From NCBI GenBank assembly GCA_020628165.1, contig JAHDFM010000024.1, positions 1-53,960 on the forward strand: DNA of 53,960 nucleotides, in the 5' to 3' direction. The notes under the pieces are model-generated. The model was not told where the DNA came from, ran no database searches, and saw only the letters and a program-made list of their open reading frames with translations. The stretch is from Bdellovibrionales bacterium. Its GTDB lineage: Bacteria > Bdellovibrionota > Bdellovibrionia > Bdellovibrionales > UBA1609. Both the position numbers and the translations under genes were made by a program. This document shows, one piece after another, positions 5,088-45,153 of the stretch; positions within the stretch are counted from its first letter, which is position 1; each line of letters starts with the position of its first letter.

Positions 5088-7274
5088 TTAAAAAGTGCTG
5101 GCAGTGACTGGTGTGTCTAATTGCCAGACTGGTTTTGGAATGGTTCTTACACCTTCGTAATAGAAACGGTACAAAATTAAATTACGTAAAATAGCCTTCA
5201 CATAAAAGCTTGTTTCTGCCCAAGGAAGTTCATCGATCCAAATCTCATGTTCAATTTGTGAACTTCCCAACTCTTCCAATCCAGATAAATCATTAGGTCT
5301 TTTCTTAATCCAACGCCTGATATTACCAATGCCTGCGTTGTACGCGGCAAGGGCTAAGGGTACGTGCCCCTTAAAGGCGTTGATCATGCGGTTTAAGTAA
5401 CTACTGCCCAACCTAATATTCATATTTGGGTCGTAAATTTGGGATTTGGCATACGAGTTGCTGATCTTCAAATACCTGGCAGAATCTTTGATCGTGATGG
5501 GCACAATCTGCATCAACCCTTTGGCGTTTGAGCTACTCACCGCTCGCAATCGATACGAGCTTTCTTGCTTGATCAAACTACGAATTAAGTTGCGTTCAAT
5601 ACTATACTTGTCTGCAAACTCATTCACCATCGAATCGTACTCAACTGGCAAAGTTAGCTTTGTAGTGTTTTTGGTAAAGTTCACATAAGGATTCTTGTCC
5701 CAAATAATGTTCATGGTTTTGATCGCTGAGTAATGGTCAGCGGCCAGTGACGAAAAATGCGAGAAAAGCACAGCTTCTTGATCGTTTTGCACGTTAAACA
5801 ATGGCTTGAGTTCTTTGCGAGCCAGATCAAAAAAGTTCATTTGCAAAAAGTCATTGAAGTTTTCCCAAGAGAGAATTTGCTCTTTGTCCCAATTCATATT
5901 TTTTTGAAAGACATGAATATTGGTTGGCAGGATGAGTTTTTCGTTGTTCTTTTCATAGTTTGCAAGCAAACCATAGTAAGTGAGTGGGTAAAGCTTAATC
6001 AAACGATTGCGAACCACTTTTGACTTATCATCACCAAGCTTTTGTAAAGAGCGCCATAACCAATACGTTGTTTGTAAATTGAAATCATTGATCTCTTTGT
6101 GAGCTTCAAGATTATCAAGAGTCAGCTTAGCTTGATCATACTTTTTAAGGCGGTAATAAAGCAGTCCTAAACGAAACTTTGCTTCAAAATACACTTTTGT
6201 ATTGGGTTCACTTTTTTCCACAGCCACTTTCAAATGACTTTCTGCCTGTTCATATAGGCCCTGTTGCAAAGTGGACATCCCAGCCACTAACTTTGCTTCA
6301 GCATTTTCTTGTTTTTCATAGGCAAGGCCTGCAATAAAGGCCGACATGGGGTAGCTATGTGCTTGGTAATAGCGTTTTGCGAGTCGGTTGATACAAGCTA
6401 CATGACATTTCTTGATCTCGCGCACCCATTTGTTTTTTGAGCCAGGCTTGATTCTATTTTTAACAATGCGATAGATTCGGCTCACCACTTTGTATTTGCT
6501 CGACTCATACTTATTCAATAACTGAACGCCTTTGCGCAATTTTGAAAAGGACCCTGGAGTGTAATAAAAGGCGTTGTAATTTTCTCTCTCAACTTGCTCT
6601 TTACTTTTACCAAAGTTATCAAAAAAATCTTTATAGGTGCTGACCAATTCGTCTTTTTTATTCAATAAGGTTTTAAGCCGAGTTGCGTACATTGGTTGCT
6701 GATCCATATCAAAAGCTCTAAAGTAATACTCAGCTGCTTTTTGTGGATCATCTGCTTGCTCTGAACGAGCTCCTAAAAAACTATACAGCTTAGCTTTTTC
6801 AACGGGCTTTAACTGAGGTTCTATTTTTTGTAAAAAATCCTTTTCAAAGTCACTAATGATATAACTTTTACTGGAGGCCAAACTCACAAGCAAACGACCA
6901 ATGTCATCGGCCAAATAAGACGTGTCCCCTTGATATTGATTCATTTCTTCAATGTGAGTTTTGATATATTTTCTTAAACCACTTTTAACTTTATAAACTT
7001 TTCTGGCACATTTTAGCACCATATAGGACCACCAAACTCGCATGCGATCTGGTGTCTCCTTAGGAGTTTTTTTGTCATTAATGCACTTGGCGTACTTCTT
7101 GTCTTGAATCATTTTCAGGCGGTCTTGAAACTCTTTTTTGTAACCCTTCAGTTTTAGAGGTTCTCCCTCAAACGGCCTGGTCATATCTATTTTGAGACTG
7201 GTAGTGATCAGCTTCGCGTGTGAAGTAGGAGAGACGAACAATAATAATAAGACAACTTTAATGAACATTCTCAC
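5088..7274 (-). CDS. slt: Slt70-like soluble lytic murein transglycosylase, last gene of the moxR-bat operon
   Basis: 728 residues. A signal peptide (about 1-20, ending SHA) is followed by a long helical region with TPR-like pairs (for example around 155-215 and 330-420), then a C-terminal GH23/SLT domain. Catalytic Glu571 lies in IKQESSYR, followed by NAKGLMQIVP and LALAAYNAGIGNIRRW. This is the Slt70 plan: a helical ring plus a C-terminal catalytic domain cleaving periplasmic peptidoglycan. E. coli Slt is about 645 residues, so this one is longer. Its start overlaps the end of batD by 17 bases (GTG 7274; ATG 7268 is an alternative), indicating co-transcription and probable translational coupling. 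Placing slt in a Bat operon is unusual. Confidence 0.92.
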   Translation of the reverse strand: MRMFIKVVLLLLFVSPTSHAKLITTSLKIDMTRPFEGEPLKLKGYKKEFQDRLKMIQDKKYAKCINDKKTPKETPDRMRVWWSYMVLKCARKVYKVKSGLRKYIKTHIEEMNQYQGDTSYLADDIGRLLVSLASSKSYIISDFEKDFLQKIEPQLKPVEKAKLYSFLGARSEQADDPQKAAEYYFRAFDMDQQPMYATRLKTLLNKKDELVSTYKDFFDNFGKSKEQVERENYNAFYYTPGSFSKLRKGVQLLNKYESSKYKVVSRIYRIVKNRIKPGSKNKWVREIKKCHVACINRLAKRYYQAHSYPMSAFIAGLAYEKQENAEAKLVAGMSTLQQGLYEQAESHLKVAVEKSEPNTKVYFEAKFRLGLLYYRLKKYDQAKLTLDNLEAHKEINDFNLQTTYWLWRSLQKLGDDKSKVVRNRLIKLYPLTYYGLLANYEKNNEKLILPTNIHVFQKNMNWDKEQILSWENFNDFLQMNFFDLARKELKPLFNVQNDQEAVLFSHFSSLAADHYSAIKTMNIIWDKNPYVNFTKNTTKLTLPVEYDSMVNEFADKYSIERNLIRSLIKQESSYRLRAVSSSNAKGLMQIVPITIKDSARYLKISNSYAKSQIYDPNMNIRLGSSYLNRMINAFKGHVPLALAAYNAGIGNIRRWIKKRPNDLSGLEELGSSQIEHEIWIDELPWAETSFYVKAILRNLILYRFYYEGVRTIPKPVWQLDTPVTASTF

Positions 7275-28014: not shown

Positions 28015-28176
28015 AAGATAAACCCTCAATTTTAAATTTAAATGATCGTGAATGAATTTTATCGCAAAAAAATGAGTTAAAAAAGTAAAAATAAAATACA
28101 CAGGTCTCATTAATCTTTGAATTGTATTGTTATGTCCTATTGACATTTCTAATGAACTTACATGTAATTATAAGTG

Positions 28177-29058
28177 ATGGAAAAGATGGCTGTTATTGAT
28201 ATTGGTTCTAATGCGATTCGCTTATCCATAGGACACAAAGGGCTCATCAATGAAATACACTCTGAAAGATTTCCGTTACGCCTCGGAAAAGATTCATTTT
28301 ACAACGGTCAGCTCAGCCGCTATACCACCAATCGTTTTTTACAGGTTTTAAAAGACATTCAACAAAAAACCAAAACACACCATGTGGAGAAAACTCGCTT
28401 TGTCGCCACCAGCGCACTCCGAGAGGCTAAAAATAAAGATTATATCATCGATAAAATTTATGATCGCCTCGGCATCGAGGTTGAACTGATAAGTGGAGTC
28501 ACCGAAGCTAAGCTACTATTCAATGCCGTTAAAAAATACTACACCCCTCCTCCACTCAAGCAAAGTCTTATTATGGACATTGGCGGCGGAAGTGTTGAGC
28601 TTATTTCTTATAGAAACAAAAAAATCAAAGCTACAAGCCTTAAAATGGGCACTGTGCGCCTTCTCAGCCAGTCAGCCACTCAACATCACCTCTGGTCAAA
28701 AACCATTGAAACGCAAATTTCAACACATATAGACCGCTTAAAAGGTGTAAATAAAAGCAGTTTTTTTATCGGCACGGGTGGAAACGTGAAAAGCCTTGGA
28801 AAGCTTGCCTACTACACCGGCATCTCAAAAAGAACAGACCGCCTCAGTATCAACTCCATAAACACTCTTTTTGTGATTTTAAGTGGACTCACCTATCGAC
28901 AACGCATCACACAACTAGGCCTCAAGCCTGATCGCGCCGACGTGATCTTTCCAGCAGCCTTAATCATTCACCATATAATGACTCGGTTTAACCTTGAATA
29001 CGTCAATATCCCACGTGTGGGCTTACGTAACGGTTTGTTTTTAAGTAAAGACAATTAA
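28177..29058 (+). CDS. ppx: Ppx/GppA family exopolyphosphatase/pppGpp phosphatase
   Basis: 293 residues. An actin-like ATPase fold with phosphate-1 loop AVIDIGSNAIRLSIG, the ATSALREAKN block, Glu in SGVTEAKLLF and phosphate-2 loop MDIGGGSVELI. These are standard for Ppx/GppA, which shorten inorganic polyphosphate from its ends and/or hydrolyse pppGpp. At this length it contains the two N-terminal domains only, without the C-terminal HD region of E. coli Ppx. It is convergent with ppk1, 6 bases apart. ATG 28177 is used; an ATG at 28186 with GGAAAAG upstream is also possible. Confidence 0.92.
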   Translation: MEKMAVIDIGSNAIRLSIGHKGLINEIHSERFPLRLGKDSFYNGQLSRYTTNRFLQVLKDIQQKTKTHHVEKTRFVATSALREAKNKDYIIDKIYDRLGIEVELISGVTEAKLLFNAVKKYYTPPPLKQSLIMDIGGGSVELISYRNKKIKATSLKMGTVRLLSQSATQHHLWSKTIETQISTHIDRLKGVNKSSFFIGTGGNVKSLGKLAYYTGISKRTDRLSINSINTLFVILSGLTYRQRITQLGLKPDRADVIFPAALIIHHIMTRFNLEYVNIPRVGLRNGLFLSKDN

Positions 29059-29064
29059 ACTTTA

Positions 29065-31170
29065 CTAGTACTTCTTTTTATTTTTAACTTTGTAGTAATT
29101 CATAAGGTGGGTTTGAGTGCCTTTGACCTTAGATTTTTCTCTTATGTAAGATCCGTCAGCTCTTAACTTCCAAGTTTGTCGGTCAGACTCTAAATAGCTA
29201 TCAAGTATCATCAAACCTTGCTCAATCAAAGCTGGTTCAATAAGTGGCACCAGCACTTCTACCCGCCGCTCTAGATTTCGGTGCATCAAATCGGCTGAGC
29301 CCAGGTACATGGCGCCCTCTTCCCTATTGTCTTTGCCCTCTCTGAAATAAAAAATACGAGAATGCTCTAAGAAGCGATCGACTATAGAGTAAACTTGAAT
29401 ATTCTGTGTTGCCTTAGTTTCACCCGGCTTAACAATACAAATGGTTCTTATAATCAAATGAATGACCACGCCTGCTTCAGCCGCATTGTACAAAGCCATG
29501 GCGATGTCTTTGTCTTCTAAATTGTTGCACTTAAAAATAATTTCTGCTGGCAAACCTTTTCGAGCGTTCTCAGTTTCTTTCAGAATCATCTTAAGGAATT
29601 TTTGTTTTAAATTCAGTGGAGCCTTCAAGATACTGCGGTAAGAGTCTTTCAAAGAGCGTCCCGTTAAAAAGTGAAACAACTCAACAACATCATCGGTGAT
29701 CTCTTTGCGAGAGGTCAATAAACCCACGTCTGTATATAGTTTTGCAGTGTTGGAGTTGTAGTTCCCCGAGCCTATATGGGAATAGCACTTAATATTGTCA
29801 CCTTCTTTACGAATCACAAGAGCCACCTTACAGTGCGTTTTTAAACCAACAACACCGTAAACAACATGACAGCCTGCACGCTCTAAACGGTTGGCCCATT
29901 CAATGTTTCTCTCTTCATCAAGTCGTGCCTGCAATTCAATAAGACACACCACCTGCTTGCCGTTCTCCGCAGCTTTTATCAAAGCTGGAACAATCGAACT
30001 TTCTTCATTGGTGCGATAAAATGTCATTTTAATAGCGAGCACATCTTTGTCGTTAGCGGCTGTCCAAATAAAATTCTCAACGCTGTTATTAAAACTCTCA
30101 AAAGGATGATGAACTAGAATATCTTTATTTTTAAGAACATTAAAAACATCTGTATCATCAGAAAAATCTTTGACAGGAACTGGAGTCCACACCTTGTACT
30201 TAAGCTCTGGCTTTTGTATCGAACAAATTGTGTGTAAATGAGAAAAATCAATTTCTTCTGACATCTCATAAATATCAAAATCGTGAATTTCTAACTCACT
30301 TTTGAGAAACTGAACGAGCCAATCACTTTTTGGCTTTCTGAGCTCTAATTTAACTACTTCTCCGTAGCGCCGTTCGCGCAGTTCTTTTTCGATCTTATCT
30401 AAAAGTGATGAGTTTTCTTCTTCATCACTTTCAACCTCGATGTTGCGTGTGACTCTGAAAAGCATAGTTTCGACAATTTCCATTTTTGGAAATAAATATT
30501 GAATAAAGTTTTGCACAATGTCTTCCGTGCGCACCCACATACTTTTGTTTTGATCTTGTATGCAGTAATAGGGAGGGAAAATGTCTGGAATCTTAACTCT
30601 TGAAAAAACCCTTTCATCATTGCCTGGGTATTTAAGCGCGACTGCCAAAGACACACTCATTGAAGAAATGTGCGGAAACGGATGCCCCACATCCACGGCC
30701 AGTGGCGTGAGCACAGGGAATATTTTATGAAAAAAGAGAGTCTTTAACTTTTCTATATTTGCAGTGCTTAAATCAGACCAATTGCAAATGTGTATATCAT
30801 GAGTTGCCAATTCTTTTTTAAGTTGCGTGAACGTGTTTTCTGCCGTCGCATAAAGTTTTAAAACATTCTCTCTAACTGCCAGTAGCTTAGAGTCTTTTAA
30901 GCTAGAAGGGTCGTGAATTTGATAGTGACGACTGATCCACATACGTTTGGTAAAAAAATCATCTAAATTAGAGTGAAAAATTGCTAAAAAGCGGAAACGA
31001 TCGAGCAGTGGCACTGTGTTATCAGAGGCTTGAGTTAAAACTCGACTTTGGAAACTTAGTAAAGAAATATCGCGATCTAAAAACTGCGAGCTCTTAGAGT
31101 TCACGGCAAATCGCTTTAACTTGAGTTTGTTCTCTTTACTGACTTTCTTTTTCTTTCTACGTTTAGCCAT
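29065..31170 (-). CDS. ppk1: Polyphosphate kinase 1
   Basis: 701 residues, normal Ppk1 length. N-terminal domain: FLDRDISLLSFQSRVL and NLDDFFTKRM. The catalytic half has MTFYRTNEESSIVPALIKAA, then GLKTHCKVAL with the autophosphorylated His (446), GSGNYNSNTAKLYTDVGL, and the second His region in VDRFLEHSRIFYF; late MHRNLERRVEVLVP. It makes polyphosphate from ATP. A very basic N-terminal extension (AKRRKKKKVSKENK) precedes the domain. ATG 31170 has AGGAG only two bases upstream; a TTG at 31185 has none. It lies tail to tail with ppx and divergent from the CHAD-like gene, forming a polyphosphate cluster. Confidence 0.96.
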   Translation of the reverse strand: MAKRRKKKKVSKENKLKLKRFAVNSKSSQFLDRDISLLSFQSRVLTQASDNTVPLLDRFRFLAIFHSNLDDFFTKRMWISRHYQIHDPSSLKDSKLLAVRENVLKLYATAENTFTQLKKELATHDIHICNWSDLSTANIEKLKTLFFHKIFPVLTPLAVDVGHPFPHISSMSVSLAVALKYPGNDERVFSRVKIPDIFPPYYCIQDQNKSMWVRTEDIVQNFIQYLFPKMEIVETMLFRVTRNIEVESDEEENSSLLDKIEKELRERRYGEVVKLELRKPKSDWLVQFLKSELEIHDFDIYEMSEEIDFSHLHTICSIQKPELKYKVWTPVPVKDFSDDTDVFNVLKNKDILVHHPFESFNNSVENFIWTAANDKDVLAIKMTFYRTNEESSIVPALIKAAENGKQVVCLIELQARLDEERNIEWANRLERAGCHVVYGVVGLKTHCKVALVIRKEGDNIKCYSHIGSGNYNSNTAKLYTDVGLLTSRKEITDDVVELFHFLTGRSLKDSYRSILKAPLNLKQKFLKMILKETENARKGLPAEIIFKCNNLEDKDIAMALYNAAEAGVVIHLIIRTICIVKPGETKATQNIQVYSIVDRFLEHSRIFYFREGKDNREEGAMYLGSADLMHRNLERRVEVLVPLIEPALIEQGLMILDSYLESDRQTWKLRADGSYIREKSKVKGTQTHLMNYYKVKNKKKY

Positions 31171-31305
31171 GGCTCCTGCATACAAAATTACGGTAAATTT
31201 GTCTAAAGATTTGAACTATTTACAGTATTTATCGGAACGACCCATTAATTAGTTGAACAGCTCATTTTAATAAAATAAATGAAATTTCAATGACAAGGGG
31301 GACTT

Positions 31306-32223
31306 ATGTATAAATTCTTAATTTTGCTACTTATAACACACTTAAACTTTGCACAGGCCAATATCAGTTTTAGCGAAGGAGGCAAAAATAGACTCATGGA
31401 ATCTCTCGGTCAAACGTCTAGCCTTATACTTAATATCGAAACAGGTGAAGGCCCCCATGATCCACAGGTAAAAAAATTGCGTAAGCAAATTGGTATGTTT
31501 AGAAATTTCATAGATATTTATATAATTATCTACCCAAAAAAATCTAAAATGCTTCAATTAAGAGAGCTGTTAGATGACGGCTATGAACTCTATGGTGATT
31601 ACAAAGATATTTTTGACAGTGTGAAAGACACGCCTGAATTTGCCCTAGAGTTTCTTAAATTCAAAAAAGAGAAAAAAGCTGTCAAAAAATGGATCAAGCA
31701 ATTTGAAAAAGCTGTCGTAAAAAAAATGAGTAAATGGAAAGAAAGAATAGCTTCACCAAGTAACGGCGTGCAATCTTATAAGTCCAAAGACTTAAGTCCT
31801 TTTTTCTGGGCTAACAACAATCAACTGGATTCCTTAATCCCAGGTCAAGACGAAGAGCTAGTTTTACAAACTCTAAAAAGCAGTCTCGTTGAAAAATCAC
31901 AACCGATTCTCAACAATCTATTTCTTATTGAAACACCTCTGAACTCCTATGATGAAGAGAATACGTTCCATGACTTTAGAAAGTCTCTAAGAGCAATATT
32001 AAAAATAAGTAATTGGTACCCTGAATACTTTATGTCTTTAGATGACAGCTACCTTGATGATGTTGTTGGACAATTTGGCGACTTGAACGATCTTATTGTC
32101 CGCTACCACAAATCGACTAAAGACTCACAACTCAAACAGAAAATTAAAGATGAATGGCAAAGCATATTAGAGAAGCTCGATAAAGAAAGACTGATTGAGC
32201 AATTAAACAGATTAGCTAGTTAA
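31306..32223 (+). CDS. Exported CHAD-like domain protein next to ppk1/ppx
   Basis: 305 residues with a signal peptide (about 1-18, FAQA). The mature protein is alpha-helical in two similar halves. Each carries a His-x-Asp/Arg helix: HDPQVKKLRKQIGMFR from His51, and FHDFRKSLRAILK with His222, Arg225 and Arg229, each followed by a helix like LLDDGYELYGDYKDI or VVGQFGDLNDLIVRY. This is the pattern of the conserved histidine alpha-helical domain (CHAD), which binds polyphosphate. CHAD proteins known to me are cytoplasmic; the signal peptide is unusual. AGGGGG lies 7 bases before the ATG. The family call is by eye; its place next to ppk1 and ppx supports it. Confidence 0.68.
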   Translation: MYKFLILLLITHLNFAQANISFSEGGKNRLMESLGQTSSLILNIETGEGPHDPQVKKLRKQIGMFRNFIDIYIIIYPKKSKMLQLRELLDDGYELYGDYKDIFDSVKDTPEFALEFLKFKKEKKAVKKWIKQFEKAVVKKMSKWKERIASPSNGVQSYKSKDLSPFFWANNNQLDSLIPGQDEELVLQTLKSSLVEKSQPILNNLFLIETPLNSYDEENTFHDFRKSLRAILKISNWYPEYFMSLDDSYLDDVVGQFGDLNDLIVRYHKSTKDSQLKQKIKDEWQSILEKLDKERLIEQLNRLAS

Positions 32224-32359
32224 TAACTTTTTTCAAGTTAACGGCTCGATATCTGCTTTGATCAGATATTTGTTAGTAAACTCTTTCACAACAGAGATCT
32301 AATAAAAATATAATACAAACCTTCCTTGCTACAAATATTTTATTCTGAAAATAAAATTG

Positions 32360-33130
32360 ATGAATTTAATTTGTGACTTTCATATTCATACTCGCTACAG
32401 CGATGGCAAATTAAGTTTAAGTGAAATCATTGATTTGTACGGAAAACATAACTTTGCTGCCATTGCCATCACAGATCACCTTTGTGAAAACAACACTCTC
32501 TTAGGTCGTTCTGCCAAACAGCTTAATAAGACCTTAACCCAAGATAATTTTAGCAATTACCTTAATGACATTGAATTCGAAAAAAAACGAGCCATGAAAC
32601 TCTACAATATGCTTGTCATTCCTGGAGTTGAAATCACCAAAAATAGTTTTTCTCACAAAAATTCCGCCCATATCTTAGGTTTAGGAATCAATGGCTATAT
32701 CAATCCTAATAACTCTATCGAAAACATTTGTGATCAAATTCGCAGACAAGGAGGCCTCACCATCGCGGCTCACCCAGTCGCTACAGGTAAATTTGAGCAC
32801 CAAACTTATTATTTATGGAACCACCGAAAACGATTAGAAAGTCACTTTGATGCTTGGGAGGTCGCCAGCGGCAGCAAGTTGTTTTCTAAAGTTTTAAAAA
32901 GTCACCTGCCCAAGATTGCCAATAGCGATTTACATCATCCAAAGCAAATTTACTCCTGGAAAACCATCGTTAACTGTAGTCGCAATCAAGAGGCTATTTT
33001 TCAAGCCATCAAAAATCAAAACTTATCCTTTAAATATTACCATAAAAACTTAATCCAAAAAGCAAGTGTCAAGGAGGTCATCAATGCTTTTCTTCCAGCC
33101 GCAGTTACCCACCCACAGGCCCATTTCTAA
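32360..33130 (+). CDS. PHP-domain phosphoesterase
   Basis: 256 residues covering a complete PHP metal site: CDFHIHTRYSDG (His8, His10), ITDH, VIPGVEIT (Glu), IAAHPV and IANSDLHH. PHP proteins hydrolyse phosphoester bonds using two or three metal ions; members include histidinol phosphatase and nucleotide or lipid phosphoesterases, and the substrate here cannot be told. ATG 32360 is preferred over the TTG three bases before it, though the ribosome site is weak. It is the first gene of an overlapping four-gene unit with OlsB-like and PlsC-like acyltransferases and arginase, so a role in lipid head-group metabolism is possible but inferred. Confidence 0.85.
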   Translation: MNLICDFHIHTRYSDGKLSLSEIIDLYGKHNFAAIAITDHLCENNTLLGRSAKQLNKTLTQDNFSNYLNDIEFEKKRAMKLYNMLVIPGVEITKNSFSHKNSAHILGLGINGYINPNNSIENICDQIRRQGGLTIAAHPVATGKFEHQTYYLWNHRKRLESHFDAWEVASGSKLFSKVLKSHLPKIANSDLHHPKQIYSWKTIVNCSRNQEAIFQAIKNQNLSFKYYHKNLIQKASVKEVINAFLPAAVTHPQAHF

Positions 33131-33935
33131 ATACAGTCCCAAAAAAATTAAGAAAATAAGGCAACTGAGTAAAATAAGTAAATTTCGCCAAAAAATTAAT
33201 TTCAAAATTAATGTGGGCGATTACGTCGTTAAAACTGCAGAAACTCCCGAAGAATTAACCTCAGCCCTCATGCTCAGACATGACATTTTCATAAAAGAGG
33301 GCCTCGGAGTCCTAAGCCTTCCTGAAAGCTTAGACTTTGACAAATATGATTTACTTGCCGATCACATTCTTCTTATCAAACGAGACAGTCAAAAACTCAT
33401 TGGAACTTACCGAGTTTTGTCGAGCAGTTTTTGTGATAGCTTTTACACTGGCAATGAGTTTTACATTGAAGACTTTTTAAATGAAAAAGGGATTAAGCTT
33501 GAGCTCGGCCGCGCTTGTATTCATCAAGATCACAGAAAAAGCTTTGCCATTCACCTGATCTGGAAGGGCCTAGGACGCTATGCAAGCCTCATTGGTGCCG
33601 CCAAAATGTTTGGTTGCACAAGTGTCAAATCAAATTGCAAACACCGAGCACAGCAGTACATAAATTATCTAAAGCCCAATTTTCATAGCGACCAATACAA
33701 TATAAGAGTTCGCTCAAAGTATTCAAGTTTTCAACAAAAGCAAGACTATAAAATATTACATCTTGATGAGATCAAACACTCCATCCCAGCCCTCATGAAA
33801 TCATATATGAAGGCAGGGGCTAAGTTTCATGGTTTTCCAGCCTACGACTCAAACTTAAAAACAACGGACTTTTTCACTGTCCTAGATTTAAAAAATTTAA
33901 ATGAACACTACAAAAAAAGGTACACCGTTTTATGA
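33084..33935 (+). CDS. olsB: OlsB-like N-acyltransferase (GNAT fold)
   Basis: 283 residues. After a basic N-terminal region the GNAT-type core shows TPEELTSALMLRHDIFIKEG, then LIGTYRVLSS, then the family signature KLELGRACIHQDHR, GRYASLIGAAKMFGCTSV and a C-terminal KAGAKFHGFPAYD. This matches OlsB/hemolysin-type acyltransferases, which transfer a 3-hydroxyacyl chain from ACP to the amino group of ornithine to give lyso-ornithine lipid. AAGGAGG six bases upstream fixes ATG 33084, 47 bases inside the PHP gene. It overlaps the plsC-like gene by four bases. N-acyl amino acid synthases of the FeeM type are the alternative, but the context favours OlsB. Confidence 0.85.
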   Translation: MLFFQPQLPTHRPISKYSPKKIKKIRQLSKISKFRQKINFKINVGDYVVKTAETPEELTSALMLRHDIFIKEGLGVLSLPESLDFDKYDLLADHILLIKRDSQKLIGTYRVLSSSFCDSFYTGNEFYIEDFLNEKGIKLELGRACIHQDHRKSFAIHLIWKGLGRYASLIGAAKMFGCTSVKSNCKHRAQQYINYLKPNFHSDQYNIRVRSKYSSFQQKQDYKILHLDEIKHSIPALMKSYMKAGAKFHGFPAYDSNLKTTDFFTVLDLKNLNEHYKKRYTVL

Positions 33936-34711
33936 AACTCACCCAACAAATCTTTAAGTTTATAATTGTATTCACTCTCATTCTTTTGTTTTGCCTCAGC
34001 TCATTGATGCTTAAGCTCTTTTATTGGAACCGTTGGGTTTTGGCTAAAAAAAGATCTCACCTATTAATGAGATACTGCCGACTTGGGCTAAAAGTCATGG
34101 GTGTTCAACTCACTATGGACAAGCGCATTGATGCCTCTATGGAAAACCGACTGATAGTTTGCAATCACTTATCTTATATGGATATTTTGTTGCTCTCTTC
34201 AGTGGTTCCAACAAGTTTCGTGACCTCAATGGAAATAAAAAATGATCCATTTTTAGGGCGATTGTCAGAACTTGCTAGCTGTCTGTACGTGGAGCGAAGA
34301 AGTCGTAAAAATTTAAGTAATGAGATTTCAGACATCACTAATGCTCTCAAAAATGGGCTGAATGTGACCATTTTCCCCGAGGCCACTAGTACCAACGGAG
34401 AACAAGTTCTTCGTTTTAGACGTCCACTTTACAACTCAGCCTTACATTCACAAAAAAGAACTCTCCCCCTTTGCATCAACTATAGAAAACTCAACGATCA
34501 GTTGATCACCAAACAGAATAGAGACTCTATTTTTTGGTACGATAAAATGGCCTTCTTCCCACATCTATGGAATTTTTTATCTTTGAGCTCTATTGAAGTG
34601 AGCATTTCTGTTCTTGACGAAGTTTCGTACTCACAAGACCTAGATGCTGCAGACATCGCAGAACAAACACACAAAATGGTTTCAGAAAGGTTCATTCCAT
34701 GCACAATATAA
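33932..34711 (+). CDS. olsA: PlsC/OlsA-like O-acyltransferase
   Basis: 259 residues with an N-terminal membrane helix (about 8-30). Acyltransferase motifs: NHLSYMD (His79, Asp84), the substrate block around LYVERRSRKN, and FPEATST. These define the 1-acylglycerol-3-phosphate acyltransferase family. OlsA members instead acylate lyso-ornithine lipid. Placement right after an OlsB-like gene (ATGA overlap) and before arginase argues for OlsA, though a PlsC role cannot be ruled out from sequence. The 3' end overlaps the arginase start by 13 bases. Confidence 0.85.
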   Translation: MKLTQQIFKFIIVFTLILLFCLSSLMLKLFYWNRWVLAKKRSHLLMRYCRLGLKVMGVQLTMDKRIDASMENRLIVCNHLSYMDILLLSSVVPTSFVTSMEIKNDPFLGRLSELASCLYVERRSRKNLSNEISDITNALKNGLNVTIFPEATSTNGEQVLRFRRPLYNSALHSQKRTLPLCINYRKLNDQLITKQNRDSIFWYDKMAFFPHLWNFLSLSSIEVSISVLDEVSYSQDLDAADIAEQTHKMVSERFIPCTI

Positions 34712-35634
34712 ATAAGCAAATTATCAATATCCTCGGGATCAACTTTAGCTTTGGACAGAAAAAAAATGGAGTTCAACTAGCTCCTGAAGTCATCCGAGCC
34801 AATGGTTGCCTAGAAAATTTAGATCAAAAATATGAAGTTTATGACTTTGGAAACATTGATCAAGATTTGAAAAAAGACCCTGGAAGTAACTATAAAAATT
34901 TACATGATCAAGTCAAACGACTGTCTAAATACAGTGGCCAAAAGCTTTTCTTAGGTGGTGACCACGGCATTTCTTTCGCAACCATTTCAGCTCTCCTTAG
35001 CATTTACCCAAATTTAAGAATCATATGGGTCGATGCTCACGCAGACATTAACACCCCGAGCAGCTCCCCTTCAGGCAATCTGCACGGAATGCCCCTTGCC
35101 GCCCTCATGGGATTGATCAAAAAAAATCAAATCAAATCGACAAATTGGTTAAAGCCATGTTTGATAGCTAACCGAGTGGCTTACATCGGTTTGCGCGACA
35201 TTGATCCTCAAGAAAGAAAATTTATTAAAGACTTAAATATAAAATGCTTCACAGCACATCAGGTTAAAATACGAGGTATGAAGAAAGTAATACAAGAAGC
35301 CATTGATGCTATTGATCCATTTCACAACAATCCCCTGCATCTGAGTTTTGATATCGATTCAGTCGACCCCCTCTATGCACCTTCAACAGGGACTTCAGTT
35401 AAAAATGGCTTAACTCAACAAGATGTGAATGTCTTAGCAAAAAATCTCTATGAAACTCAAAGGTTGGTGAGTTGTGAAGTCGTGGAACTCAACCCTTTGA
35501 TTAACACTTGCGACAATAATCTCACAAAAAGCCTATCCGTCATTAAATTATTAATTAATAATTTATTTAACACAGCTGAAATTCAACCTGAGCAAAAAAT
35601 CAATAGTGCCGCTATTCCACAACTGCTTTTGTAA
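34699..35634 (+). CDS. rocF: Arginase (ureohydrolase family)
   Basis: 311 residues. The manganese-binding motifs are complete: GGDHG (His89), WVDAHADINTP (Asp112, His114, Asp116) and SFDIDSVDP (Asp218, Asp220). The block SPSGNLHGMPLAAL is the arginase-specific loop, favouring arginase over agmatinase or formimidoylglutamase. It converts arginine to ornithine and urea. AAAGG eight bases upstream supports ATG 34699, within the end of the OlsA-like gene. As the last gene of an operon with ornithine-acylating enzymes, it likely supplies ornithine for lipid synthesis. Its 3' end overlaps a convergent hydrolase gene by 23 bases. Confidence 0.93.
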   Translation: MHNINKQIINILGINFSFGQKKNGVQLAPEVIRANGCLENLDQKYEVYDFGNIDQDLKKDPGSNYKNLHDQVKRLSKYSGQKLFLGGDHGISFATISALLSIYPNLRIIWVDAHADINTPSSSPSGNLHGMPLAALMGLIKKNQIKSTNWLKPCLIANRVAYIGLRDIDPQERKFIKDLNIKCFTAHQVKIRGMKKVIQEAIDAIDPFHNNPLHLSFDIDSVDPLYAPSTGTSVKNGLTQQDVNVLAKNLYETQRLVSCEVVELNPLINTCDNNLTKSLSVIKLLINNLFNTAEIQPEQKINSAAIPQLLL

Positions 35635-37423: not shown

Positions 37424-38560
37424 TTACTTTATTTCTAAACTTTTAGGCGCGAGCACACGGTCTAAAGTGCTTGAACCCGACGGGTGTAGACCTTTTATTT
37501 TTATAGTTTTCCCTTTGTAGGCGATCGCTGGTTTTGAACTTGTCCACTGAAAGCCGTGCTTTCCTTCTCCATTGTTCAAACACAACTCAGAAACACTCAC
37601 TTTTATGTTAGTGGTGTGTCCACCCAGCACTTCCATTTCACCGTTACTATCAATAGCTAAGAACTTAACCATGATGGCATTGTTATAGTTTTTAGAGCAA
37701 GCAAACCCTTTTGCGTATATATAACCCTTGTCGTTCAACTCAAGTTTTTCTATCCATCCTGTAACTTCACCCGCTTGTCCTGTACCAGTGGTCCCTGTTC
37801 CAGTAGGTCTTTGTTTAACTTCAAGCTTATAATGTTCACTCTCTACAGGGTCTCCACAACCATTGTCAGCAACTATATAGTAGTAACCTTCACTGTCATA
37901 TAAAACTGGCTTGATATCATAGAGGTTATCAAAGACATCTGTATAGATCCTTGTTGGTGTTGAGTTAGGACTTTTATAAAAATACCATTTGATGTCTGGT
38001 TTAGGGTCACCTGTGACATCATAACCAATCCATTTGTCTTCATCTAAAAATGCAATTAAATGTGAATTAGGTTGTGACATAACTATCTTCGGCGGCTCAC
38101 AGTCTTGAGGTGGATCAACTGGAGGGTCGACAGGAGGGTCAACAGGACAGTACTTCAATGTGAATTTCTTTTCCTCTCTCTTGTAGCTATCATCAACAAT
38201 GACCTCATACAAACCAACTGTGTCTGGGCTAACATCGACACTGTACGCTTCGCCCTCATGCAATATGTCATCGCTACCTTGTTTTTTCCAAACAACTTTG
38301 TGTTCGTAACCACCATCAACAATAACAACCTTTAAGTTTATCTTTTGCCCCTCAATCACACAGATATCTCCTTTTGGATAGTCTGCTAAATTGTAACTTT
38401 GTATGGGCGGTTCGTTAGGTGGATCAGTAGTAGGATCACCTGTGTTTGTTGGCAGACCTGTATTTTTTTTGGAAGAAAACTCATTGCTACTACAGTTCTG
38501 AAATAAACCTGTAAATGCTAAAGAAAAGAGTAATATGGCAGAGATCAGATAATTAAACAT
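37424..38560 (-). CDS. Surface lipoprotein-like protein with Ig-like repeats and Pro/Asp linkers
   Basis: 378 residues. The N-terminal hydrophobic segment ends LFQNCSS; Cys23 could be a lipidation site although FQNC is not a canonical lipobox. A Pro/Thr/Asn-rich linker precedes two Ig-like beta domains (about 65-137 and 157-245, each ending with a YYxxV-type strand and paired Cys), separated by a PVDPP repeat (three units). A Thr/Gly-rich linker leads to a C-terminal beta domain with two Cys. No enzymatic motif. It is probably a cell-surface adhesion or structural protein. AAGGAG eight bases before the ATG. Confidence 0.75.
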   Translation of the reverse strand: MFNYLISAILLFSLAFTGLFQNCSSNEFSSKKNTGLPTNTGDPTTDPPNEPPIQSYNLADYPKGDICVIEGQKINLKVVIVDGGYEHKVVWKKQGSDDILHEGEAYSVDVSPDTVGLYEVIVDDSYKREEKKFTLKYCPVDPPVDPPVDPPQDCEPPKIVMSQPNSHLIAFLDEDKWIGYDVTGDPKPDIKWYFYKSPNSTPTRIYTDVFDNLYDIKPVLYDSEGYYYIVADNGCGDPVESEHYKLEVKQRPTGTGTTGTGQAGEVTGWIEKLELNDKGYIYAKGFACSKNYNNAIMVKFLAIDSNGEMEVLGGHTTNIKVSVSELCLNNGEGKHGFQWTSSKPAIAYKGKTIKIKGLHPSGSSTLDRVLAPKSLEIK

Positions 38561-43563: not shown

Positions 43564-45153
43564 TTAAGTCGTCATTTGTTTTAAAAAATCACCCTCAATA
43601 CAGATGACTGCTGGGTGTGGCAACTTAGACTCTATGTCATGGGGCCACTGACTTGTTAGTGATTCTAGGCTCTTAGACTTCTCACCGGGATGCTGGACGG
43701 ACAGAAATAAGGTTTTATAGTCTTCGCTAAAGCAAGGGCCTGTAAACTCAGCCTCGTTTGGAGCCGACGCAACTTGAATCACTTCTCCAGCATTTTTGCC
43801 CTGGGTAGGTATGCAAAACAAGCCATTATTGCCAAATTTCTTATAGGTGCTGTTACCAATGGACCCACCAGAAATATCACTGGTCATCCACAAATTGCCC
43901 TTTTTGTCGAAGGCCAAGTTGTCTGGGCATGAGAACGTGTCACCACCCCCCATAAAAGTCTCCGCTTTAAAACTCAGTGACAATGGGTCCTTATTATTTT
44001 CACTTATTTTTAAAATGGAACCATGGTGATTGCCCTTTGGTTTATTTTTTGTCAGTGCCACATAAATATCACCAGTGACTGGGTGAATTTCAACATCTTC
44101 GGGTCGATCTAGCGGAGTTGCCCCTACAAGCTTAGCAGCTTGTCTCGTAAAAATTAACATTTGTTGTTGGTCTTGAAAGTGGGACTGAAACGGCTCACCA
44201 ATCTTATAATCAAGAGGTCTCCATTTGCCATTTATTGTGTCCGCAACATATAAGGTTCCACGATCCAACTGCCCAGGAGAGTCAGCGATGAATTTATAAA
44301 TATGCTCGTCAACTTTATCATCCCCCATGTACACGACCGTACGACCGTCTTTTGCAACAACGCAGGTTGCGCATTCATGAGAGAAGCGACCTAAACTTAC
44401 AAGTTTTTTAGATGTTTTTTTGATCGGGTCATACTCAACGACCCAACCGTAGTGCTCTGCAGGTAGCGCTCCATGAGCTTCCCAGCTGAGTTTATTATTT
44501 ATACTTGAGACCCTTTTCAATTTATTCTTAGGTTCTAGGAAAACATCACCAACGACGTTTTGATAATTTTCCTCACAAGTAAGAATAGTATTCCATGAAG
44601 TCTTTCCTCCGGCACAGTTTAAAAATGTACCTACAGCATAAGAGCTACCGTTGATCTTTTGTTTTGGAGAAAAGTCTATTTTTGTATGTCCATTAACAGT
44701 TGCATTGTCTTCGTGCCTCGGATCAACTTTCCACTGACCATTCACTTTTTCAATTTTGAAACAAGTCCCACCTAAGCTTGCCTTCTCAACGTCAATTTGT
44801 TCTTTTGTTTTATTGTGGCCTGTCTTTTCATTATAACCACTCACAAACATAGGCACGACATATTCGTGATTCACCCACATCATTGTTTCATTGTTTTTAT
44901 TTCTAGCAAGCTGAATATAATCGTTATTGTAGCCAAACTTTAAATTCTGAGACTCATTGATGATGTCATTCCATTTAATAAGGCGATAATAAGACAACCC
45001 ATCCATAAGTGTAACTTCATCATTAAAATTTGGTGATACACCAACATTTAATTTAGGCTTAGATGCTAAACTCGTGCAAGCTGAAATTAGCATTGAATTA
45101 TTTATGGAAAACGCACTCACACCTAGGAACTTTAATAGCTTTCTTCGATTCAA
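43564..45153 (-). CDS. phoX: PhoX-family phosphatase (DUF839), Tat-exported
   Basis: 529 residues. A twin-arginine signal starts MNRRKLLKFLG and runs into a hydrophobic segment with SACTS, so it may also be lipidated at Cys26. The mature part has PhoX/DUF839 blocks: MWVNHEYV, GGKTSWNTILTCEENYQN, AEHYGWVVEYDP, GRFSHECATCVVAKDG, YMGDD and the calcium-site-like RPEDVEIHP. PhoX enzymes are calcium/iron-dependent alkaline phosphatases induced under phosphate starvation in many bacteria. Related DUF839 proteins of unknown function exist, so the phosphatase call is by family. Alone in its unit. Confidence 0.85.
   Translation of the reverse strand: MNRRKLLKFLGVSAFSINNSMLISACTSLASKPKLNVGVSPNFNDEVTLMDGLSYYRLIKWNDIINESQNLKFGYNNDYIQLARNKNNETMMWVNHEYVVPMFVSGYNEKTGHNKTKEQIDVEKASLGGTCFKIEKVNGQWKVDPRHEDNATVNGHTKIDFSPKQKINGSSYAVGTFLNCAGGKTSWNTILTCEENYQNVVGDVFLEPKNKLKRVSSINNKLSWEAHGALPAEHYGWVVEYDPIKKTSKKLVSLGRFSHECATCVVAKDGRTVVYMGDDKVDEHIYKFIADSPGQLDRGTLYVADTINGKWRPLDYKIGEPFQSHFQDQQQMLIFTRQAAKLVGATPLDRPEDVEIHPVTGDIYVALTKNKPKGNHHGSILKISENNKDPLSLSFKAETFMGGGDTFSCPDNLAFDKKGNLWMTSDISGGSIGNSTYKKFGNNGLFCIPTQGKNAGEVIQVASAPNEAEFTGPCFSEDYKTLFLSVQHPGEKSKSLESLTSQWPHDIESKLPHPAVICIEGDFLKQMTT

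Follow-up and report, generated by a model that had tools for sequence, protein, structure and literature searches.

Where does a protein that resembles the polyphosphate-binding CHAD domain act, if it begins with a signal peptide and is encoded next to a polyphosphate kinase? The question is raised by a stretch of 53,960 nucleotides (the window; contig JAHDFM010000024.1 of assembly GCA_020628165.1) from a Bdellovibrionales bacterium of the Bdellovibrionota, a phylum known for predatory bacteria; the host genome comprises 3.19 Mb and is 99% complete. At 31306..32223 on the forward strand, divergent from the polyphosphate kinase gene ppk1, it encodes a divergent protein of 305 residues, which was characterized by a fold model, profile homology and a signal-peptide test. 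The reading that we favour, with more confidence than doubt, is that of an exported CHAD-family protein whose ligand is polyphosphate or a comparable linear polymer of phosphate and whose place of action is the periplasm or the cell exterior.

On its own, the window protein gives no CHAD match in Pfam, NCBIfam or the sequences of the Protein Data Bank (PDB), and as a lone query it matches only itself among 59 genomes, its own included; no Pfam CHAD match occurs anywhere in the host genome. A search across the order yielded one relative, in genome G112 (29% identity, E 7e-10), and a two-row profile recovered a further six intact proteins, plus a broken copy, from 369 genomes of the phylum. These seven intact relatives, mostly from another family within Bdellovibrionota, show 21-33% identity and were aligned with the window protein (alignment A2, eight proteins). 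Weak matches in genomes G001 and G105 were dropped, as neither lies inside a CHAD-like open reading frame (ORF). In a contig search, the window protein (P0001) found no match and the relative P0005 only its own contig, assigned to Bacteriovoracaceae in GTDB data; viral contigs and plasmids were searched for relatives, and nothing was found.

Homology to CHAD emerges by three routes, the Pfam matches of relatives, structure matches and profile-profile alignment, and is more than chance. The relatives P0005, P0006 and P0007 pass the cut-off of the Pfam CHAD family PF05235 (25.6 bits) with 34.1, 28.4 and 26.2 bits, and P0002 and P0009 match it below the cut-off. The miss of the window protein in Pfam is a limit of annotation and no biological feature; some CHAD-family members go unrecognized by Pfam. 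Aligned by hhalign to 30 canonical Bdellovibrionota CHADs, the A2 profile scores 46.6 (E 7.7e-6) with both repeats in order, against at most 18.5 for 30 column-shuffled versions and 11.6 for the reversed profile; among all PDB sequences, it matches solely CHAD entries, albeit weakly (E 0.29).

With A2 as input, AlphaFold2 produced an all-helical model (pLDDT 78.4, pTM 0.74) composed of two four-helix bundles related by pseudo-twofold symmetry, as is characteristic of CHAD; from the single sequence the result was useless (pLDDT 39.6). The five best PDB matches obtained with VIA-align are all CHAD (Z in brackets): 3e0s (15.9), 6qva (15.9), 6qv7 (15.1), 6qv5 (14.3) and PptA (10.8); the first non-CHAD chain in the ranking is a partial four-helix bundle with Z 10.6. 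The top match in Foldseek is 6qv5, with probability 1.00 and an E of just 0.019, and a fold search of BFVD with the model gave nothing convincing. For helical models, Z values below ~13 may be coincidental; because the Z of 15.9 is reached in matches to the Chlorobium tepidum domain (CtCHAD) that span 249-258 residues, and sequence homology concurs, the CHAD membership is not a coincidence, and the protein almost certainly has this fold. The preliminary description of the locus had noted a resemblance to CHAD and proposed a profile or structure comparison; fold model, profile homology and motif bear the resemblance out. A circular permutation of CHAD, suggested by a partial PDB profile match, was rejected, the structural and profile matches being collinear. 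The protein is not a CYTH-CHAD protein of the YgiF type either: the CHAD fold occupies residues 17-305, and no CYTH match was obtained in the protein or the genome.

Among the known structures, CtCHAD (6qv7, 6qva with polyphosphate, 3e0s) shares with the window protein the long type with two four-helix bundles (Z 15.1-15.9 over 249-258 residues), the basic helices and the LGxxRD-type motifs, but identity is ~12% and the solved CtCHAD domain has no export signal. E. coli YgiF (5a60) and Streptomyces PptA (6rn5) also have the CHAD fold, with Z 10.0 and 10.8; in YgiF, a short CHAD is fused to a catalytic CYTH domain, whereas the relative in G112 has a separate, divergently encoded and exported CYTH/TTM-like neighbour. 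PptA is intracellular. RcCHAD from Ricinus communis (6qv5), the best Foldseek match, likewise has the long CHAD fold (Z 14.3), but it is nuclear and nucleolar in plant cells (PMC6537752), unlike the window protein, for which export is predicted.

This prediction relies on residues 1-18 (31306..31359, forward strand), MYKFLILLLITHLNFAQA, which are followed by NIS and form a putative signal peptide with a charged start, a hydrophobic core and an A-x-A site, with predicted cleavage before Asn19. A rule-based test was positive in seven of the eight family members and in none of the 30 canonical Bdellovibrionota CHADs, and it rejected the ppx, ppk1, PHP, OlsB, abhydrolase and M14 products of the window; it also accepts the OlsA product of the window, which is membrane-associated, and, weakly, the arginase, neither of which need be exported. 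Alignment of the model with CHAD begins only at residue 17, so that the N-terminal segment is appended to the fold. No lipobox was seen in this segment, and the mature protein is therefore probably soluble. The signal peptide had already been recognized in the preliminary description, which called for such a check, and it withstood the test with its controls; export of the 305-residue protein is a strong prediction, very likely to be correct.

Some proteins of other groups combine related features: L093:267-1403 and L095:2462-3415 carry a signal peptide and match PF05235 below the cut-off, L094:1446-2498 carries a signal peptide and shares the CHAD motif only, and L092:6629-7666 is above the PF05235 cut-off and has no signal peptide.

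What might the exported domain bind? In CtCHAD, mutation of His253, Arg256, Arg260, Arg296 or Arg418/Tyr419 weakens polyphosphate binding (PMC6537752); the aligned equivalents in the window protein are Lys56, Arg59, Gly63, Lys100 and Leu232/Lys233. Each repeat has a basic helix that is followed by an LGxxRD-type motif (all on the forward strand): in repeat 1, residues 53-75 (31462..31530), with Lys56 at the position of the CHAD histidine, Arg59, Lys60 and Arg66, precede Gly97-x2-Lys100-Asp101 (31594..31608), in which Lys100 stands for CtCHAD Arg296; in repeat 2, residues 215-237 (31948..32016), with His222, Arg225, Lys226, Arg229 and Lys233, precede the counterpart Gly258-x2-Asn261-Asp262 (32077..32091). 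The His/Arg helix is complete in repeat 2, where His222, Arg225 and Arg229 constitute the H-x2-R-x3-R motif, and repeat 1 keeps Arg59, with Lys56 for the histidine and Gly63 for the arginine. No variation occurs among the eight proteins at Lys56, Arg59, Lys60, Lys100, His222, Arg225, Lys226, Arg229 and Lys233. To judge from the alignment, the basic lining is kept within the family and partly rewired. Two His/Arg helices had been described before, with His51 in the first of them and His222, Arg225 and Arg229 in the second; the latter three match the polyphosphate-contact motif, but the role of CHAD histidine does not fall to His51, which lies in a loop before helix 53-75, in a two-residue insertion, and is conserved in just five of the eight proteins, the histidine position of repeat 1 being taken by Lys56.

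The exopolyphosphatase-family gene ppx/GppA (28174..29058, forward strand; PF02541 E 5e-43; TIGR03706 198 bits, under its cut-off of 307) and ppk1 (29065..31185, reverse strand) lie tail to tail, 6 bases apart, and the CHAD gene diverges from ppk1, an arrangement given in the preliminary description and confirmed by ORF list and family scans. The ppk1 product, polyphosphate kinase 1, contains all four PPK domains of Pfam and reaches 812 bits with NCBIfam NF003921 (cut-off 701); the gene gives the one match in its genome and thus is single-copy, and the ATG at 31170 is its likelier start. In the divergent intergenic region (31186..31305), a strong ribosome site, AAGGGGGA, stands just 5' of the CHAD-gene ATG at 31306; promoter and terminator patterns were sought in this region, and neither these nor a shared signal rose above chance. 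On the far side of the CHAD gene from ppk1, consecutive genes for a PHP hydrolase, OlsB-like and OlsA-like proteins and an arginase (window 32357-35634) might constitute an ornithine-lipid cassette that supplies its own ornithine, the two ornithine-lipid-type acyltransferases scoring under their NCBIfam cut-offs, and a PhoX alkaline phosphatase is encoded at 43564-45153. With ppk1, ppx, the ornithine-lipid-type genes and PhoX, the surroundings of the CHAD gene are a phosphate-economy neighbourhood.

Phosphate genes also accompany some of the relatives. In G261, the CHAD gene is part of an island with two ppk1 genes and genes for a metallophosphoesterase, an exported propeller, a Na/Pi cotransporter, an exported inorganic pyrophosphatase (PF00719 E 4e-21) and, by a weak match, a DUF4956-like membrane protein. 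The same island (L056, G261:C89:1-12000) encodes at 5448-6302 an exported, possibly CYTH-like protein, whose CYTH identity is unproven; G262 (L057) has a comparable phosphate island with a broken CHAD copy, the exported pyrophosphatase being that of G261. In G112, the gene next to CHAD has an exported, phytase-like product (PF13449 E 5e-37). The divergent neighbour also encodes an exported protein, and its family gives CYTH/TTM matches in both Pfam and the PDB (BH2851 E 1.3e-5). The exported pyrophosphatase, phytase-like and CYTH/TTM-like proteins and the Na/Pi transporter tilt the interpretation towards extracytoplasmic scavenging of phosphorus.

The favoured reading thus draws on the CHAD fold and homology, the family-wide export signal, the conserved basic residues at positions of the CtCHAD polyphosphate cavity, the adjacency of ppk1 and ppx, and the occurrence of ppk1 and exported phosphate-releasing enzymes beside genes of relatives; polyphosphate as the ligand outside the cytoplasm appears somewhat more probable than not. 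Several observations weigh against it. Two CtCHAD contact positions are non-basic (Arg260 corresponds to Gly63, Arg418 to Leu232) and the mature protein is near neutral overall, with a net charge of +2. Two loci of G202 and those of G260, G173 and G210 have no phosphate gene next door, four of the eight family loci counted have none nearby, and 24 ppk1 loci of relatives, which carry sixA-like genes and/or ppx, lack CHAD. These residues, together with the lysine at the repeat-1 histidine position and the half of the family without phosphate neighbours, would also fit an exported CHAD fold whose ligand was lost or changed, to another anionic polymer of the envelope (extracellular DNA, phosphorylated glycans) or to metal ions, or whose role became structural; however, nine basic or histidine residues of the basic helices and the LGxxRD motif remain invariant despite identities of 21-33%, and phosphate-gene neighbours recur, so that we regard a changed ligand as rather unlikely.

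The position beside ppk1 could, alternatively, be accidental and the function of the exported protein unrelated to polyphosphate of its own cell. In the sister genome G001, ppk1 (76% identical) is preceded by another small gene, which we take to be DUF4332-like, and then by a homologue of window 37424-38560; the G+C content is 0.34 for the CHAD gene and 0.39 for ppk1. The block from the CHAD to the M14 gene (window 31.3-37.3 kb) is absent from G001 (L003) and was either inserted in the window or lost in G001. The 24 ppk1 loci without CHAD and the difference in G001 indicate that the link to ppk1 is local to the window species and one other lineage. Yet in that independent lineage (G261/G262), one of the seven other loci, CHAD lies within two genes of ppk1, for which the probability by chance is ~1% in an estimate that excludes the window locus, chosen for its ppk1; mere accident is accordingly doubtful. 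Far less probable is an ordinary cytoplasmic phosin, a protein of polyphosphate granules, with a hydrophobic N-terminus that is no export signal. Genes for CHADs often adjoin those of polyphosphate enzymes, the CHADs studied are intracellular (PMC6537752), and the host genome has no other CHAD; in contrast to a phosin, however, the window protein carries a predicted signal peptide that was accepted in a controlled test and is not part of the CHAD fold. Diverged relatives share this segment, whereas the 30 canonical CHADs, homologous over both repeats, lack it.

If the window protein is an exported polyphosphate binder, it could operate in the following manner: After cleavage of the signal peptide, the mature domain, a CHAD of the long type with a central pore (residues 19-305), would fold outside the cytoplasm, where it may hold polyphosphate chains from lysed or preyed-on cells, from the environment or from its own envelope. 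It may present these chains to exported phosphatases, and the released phosphate would be taken up and rebuilt by the neighbouring PPK1 into storage polyphosphate. More tentatively, and with less likelihood than not in our estimate, Bdellovibrionota may possess a periplasmic scavenging module, in which the exported CHAD binder and exported CYTH/TTM-like, phytase-like and pyrophosphatase cutters feed cytoplasmic PPK1; the subsets of cutters would differ between species, and prey or the environment would be the source of polyphosphate.

The exported, divergent CHAD is a newly seen form of a known domain family: in the literature searched, mostly without subscription papers, no exported CHAD was found and the phrase "periplasmic polyphosphate" was absent. 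An exported CHAD branch that recurs in several Bdellovibrionota lineages and is linked to phosphate genes would imply the handling of polyphosphate beyond the cytoplasm, and whether polyphosphate of the envelope or of prey is involved becomes directly testable via one small soluble protein.

Several minor observations concern mainly CYTH and CYTH-like proteins. The exported CYTH/TTM-like family (alignment A4; L034:193-963, L101-L107, L109, L111 and L113) has one member, L103, above the PF01928 cut-off; its profile matches CYTH structures in the PDB, and in four genomes (G112, L104, L106, L113) it adjoins exported phytase-like PF13449 genes. A second exported CYTH protein of ~300 residues occurs in genus g61 (L118:925-1827, L120:931-1833, L121:1036-1938), with the same flanks in the three species, a membrane protein and a 450-residue protein. 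At L116:1501-2754, a CYTH domain is fused with a methyltransferase domain. Directly downstream of the exported CHAD gene in L040, positions 655-1398 encode a protein of the ParB-like nuclease family (PF08857, E 2e-49) with a signal-like N-terminus.

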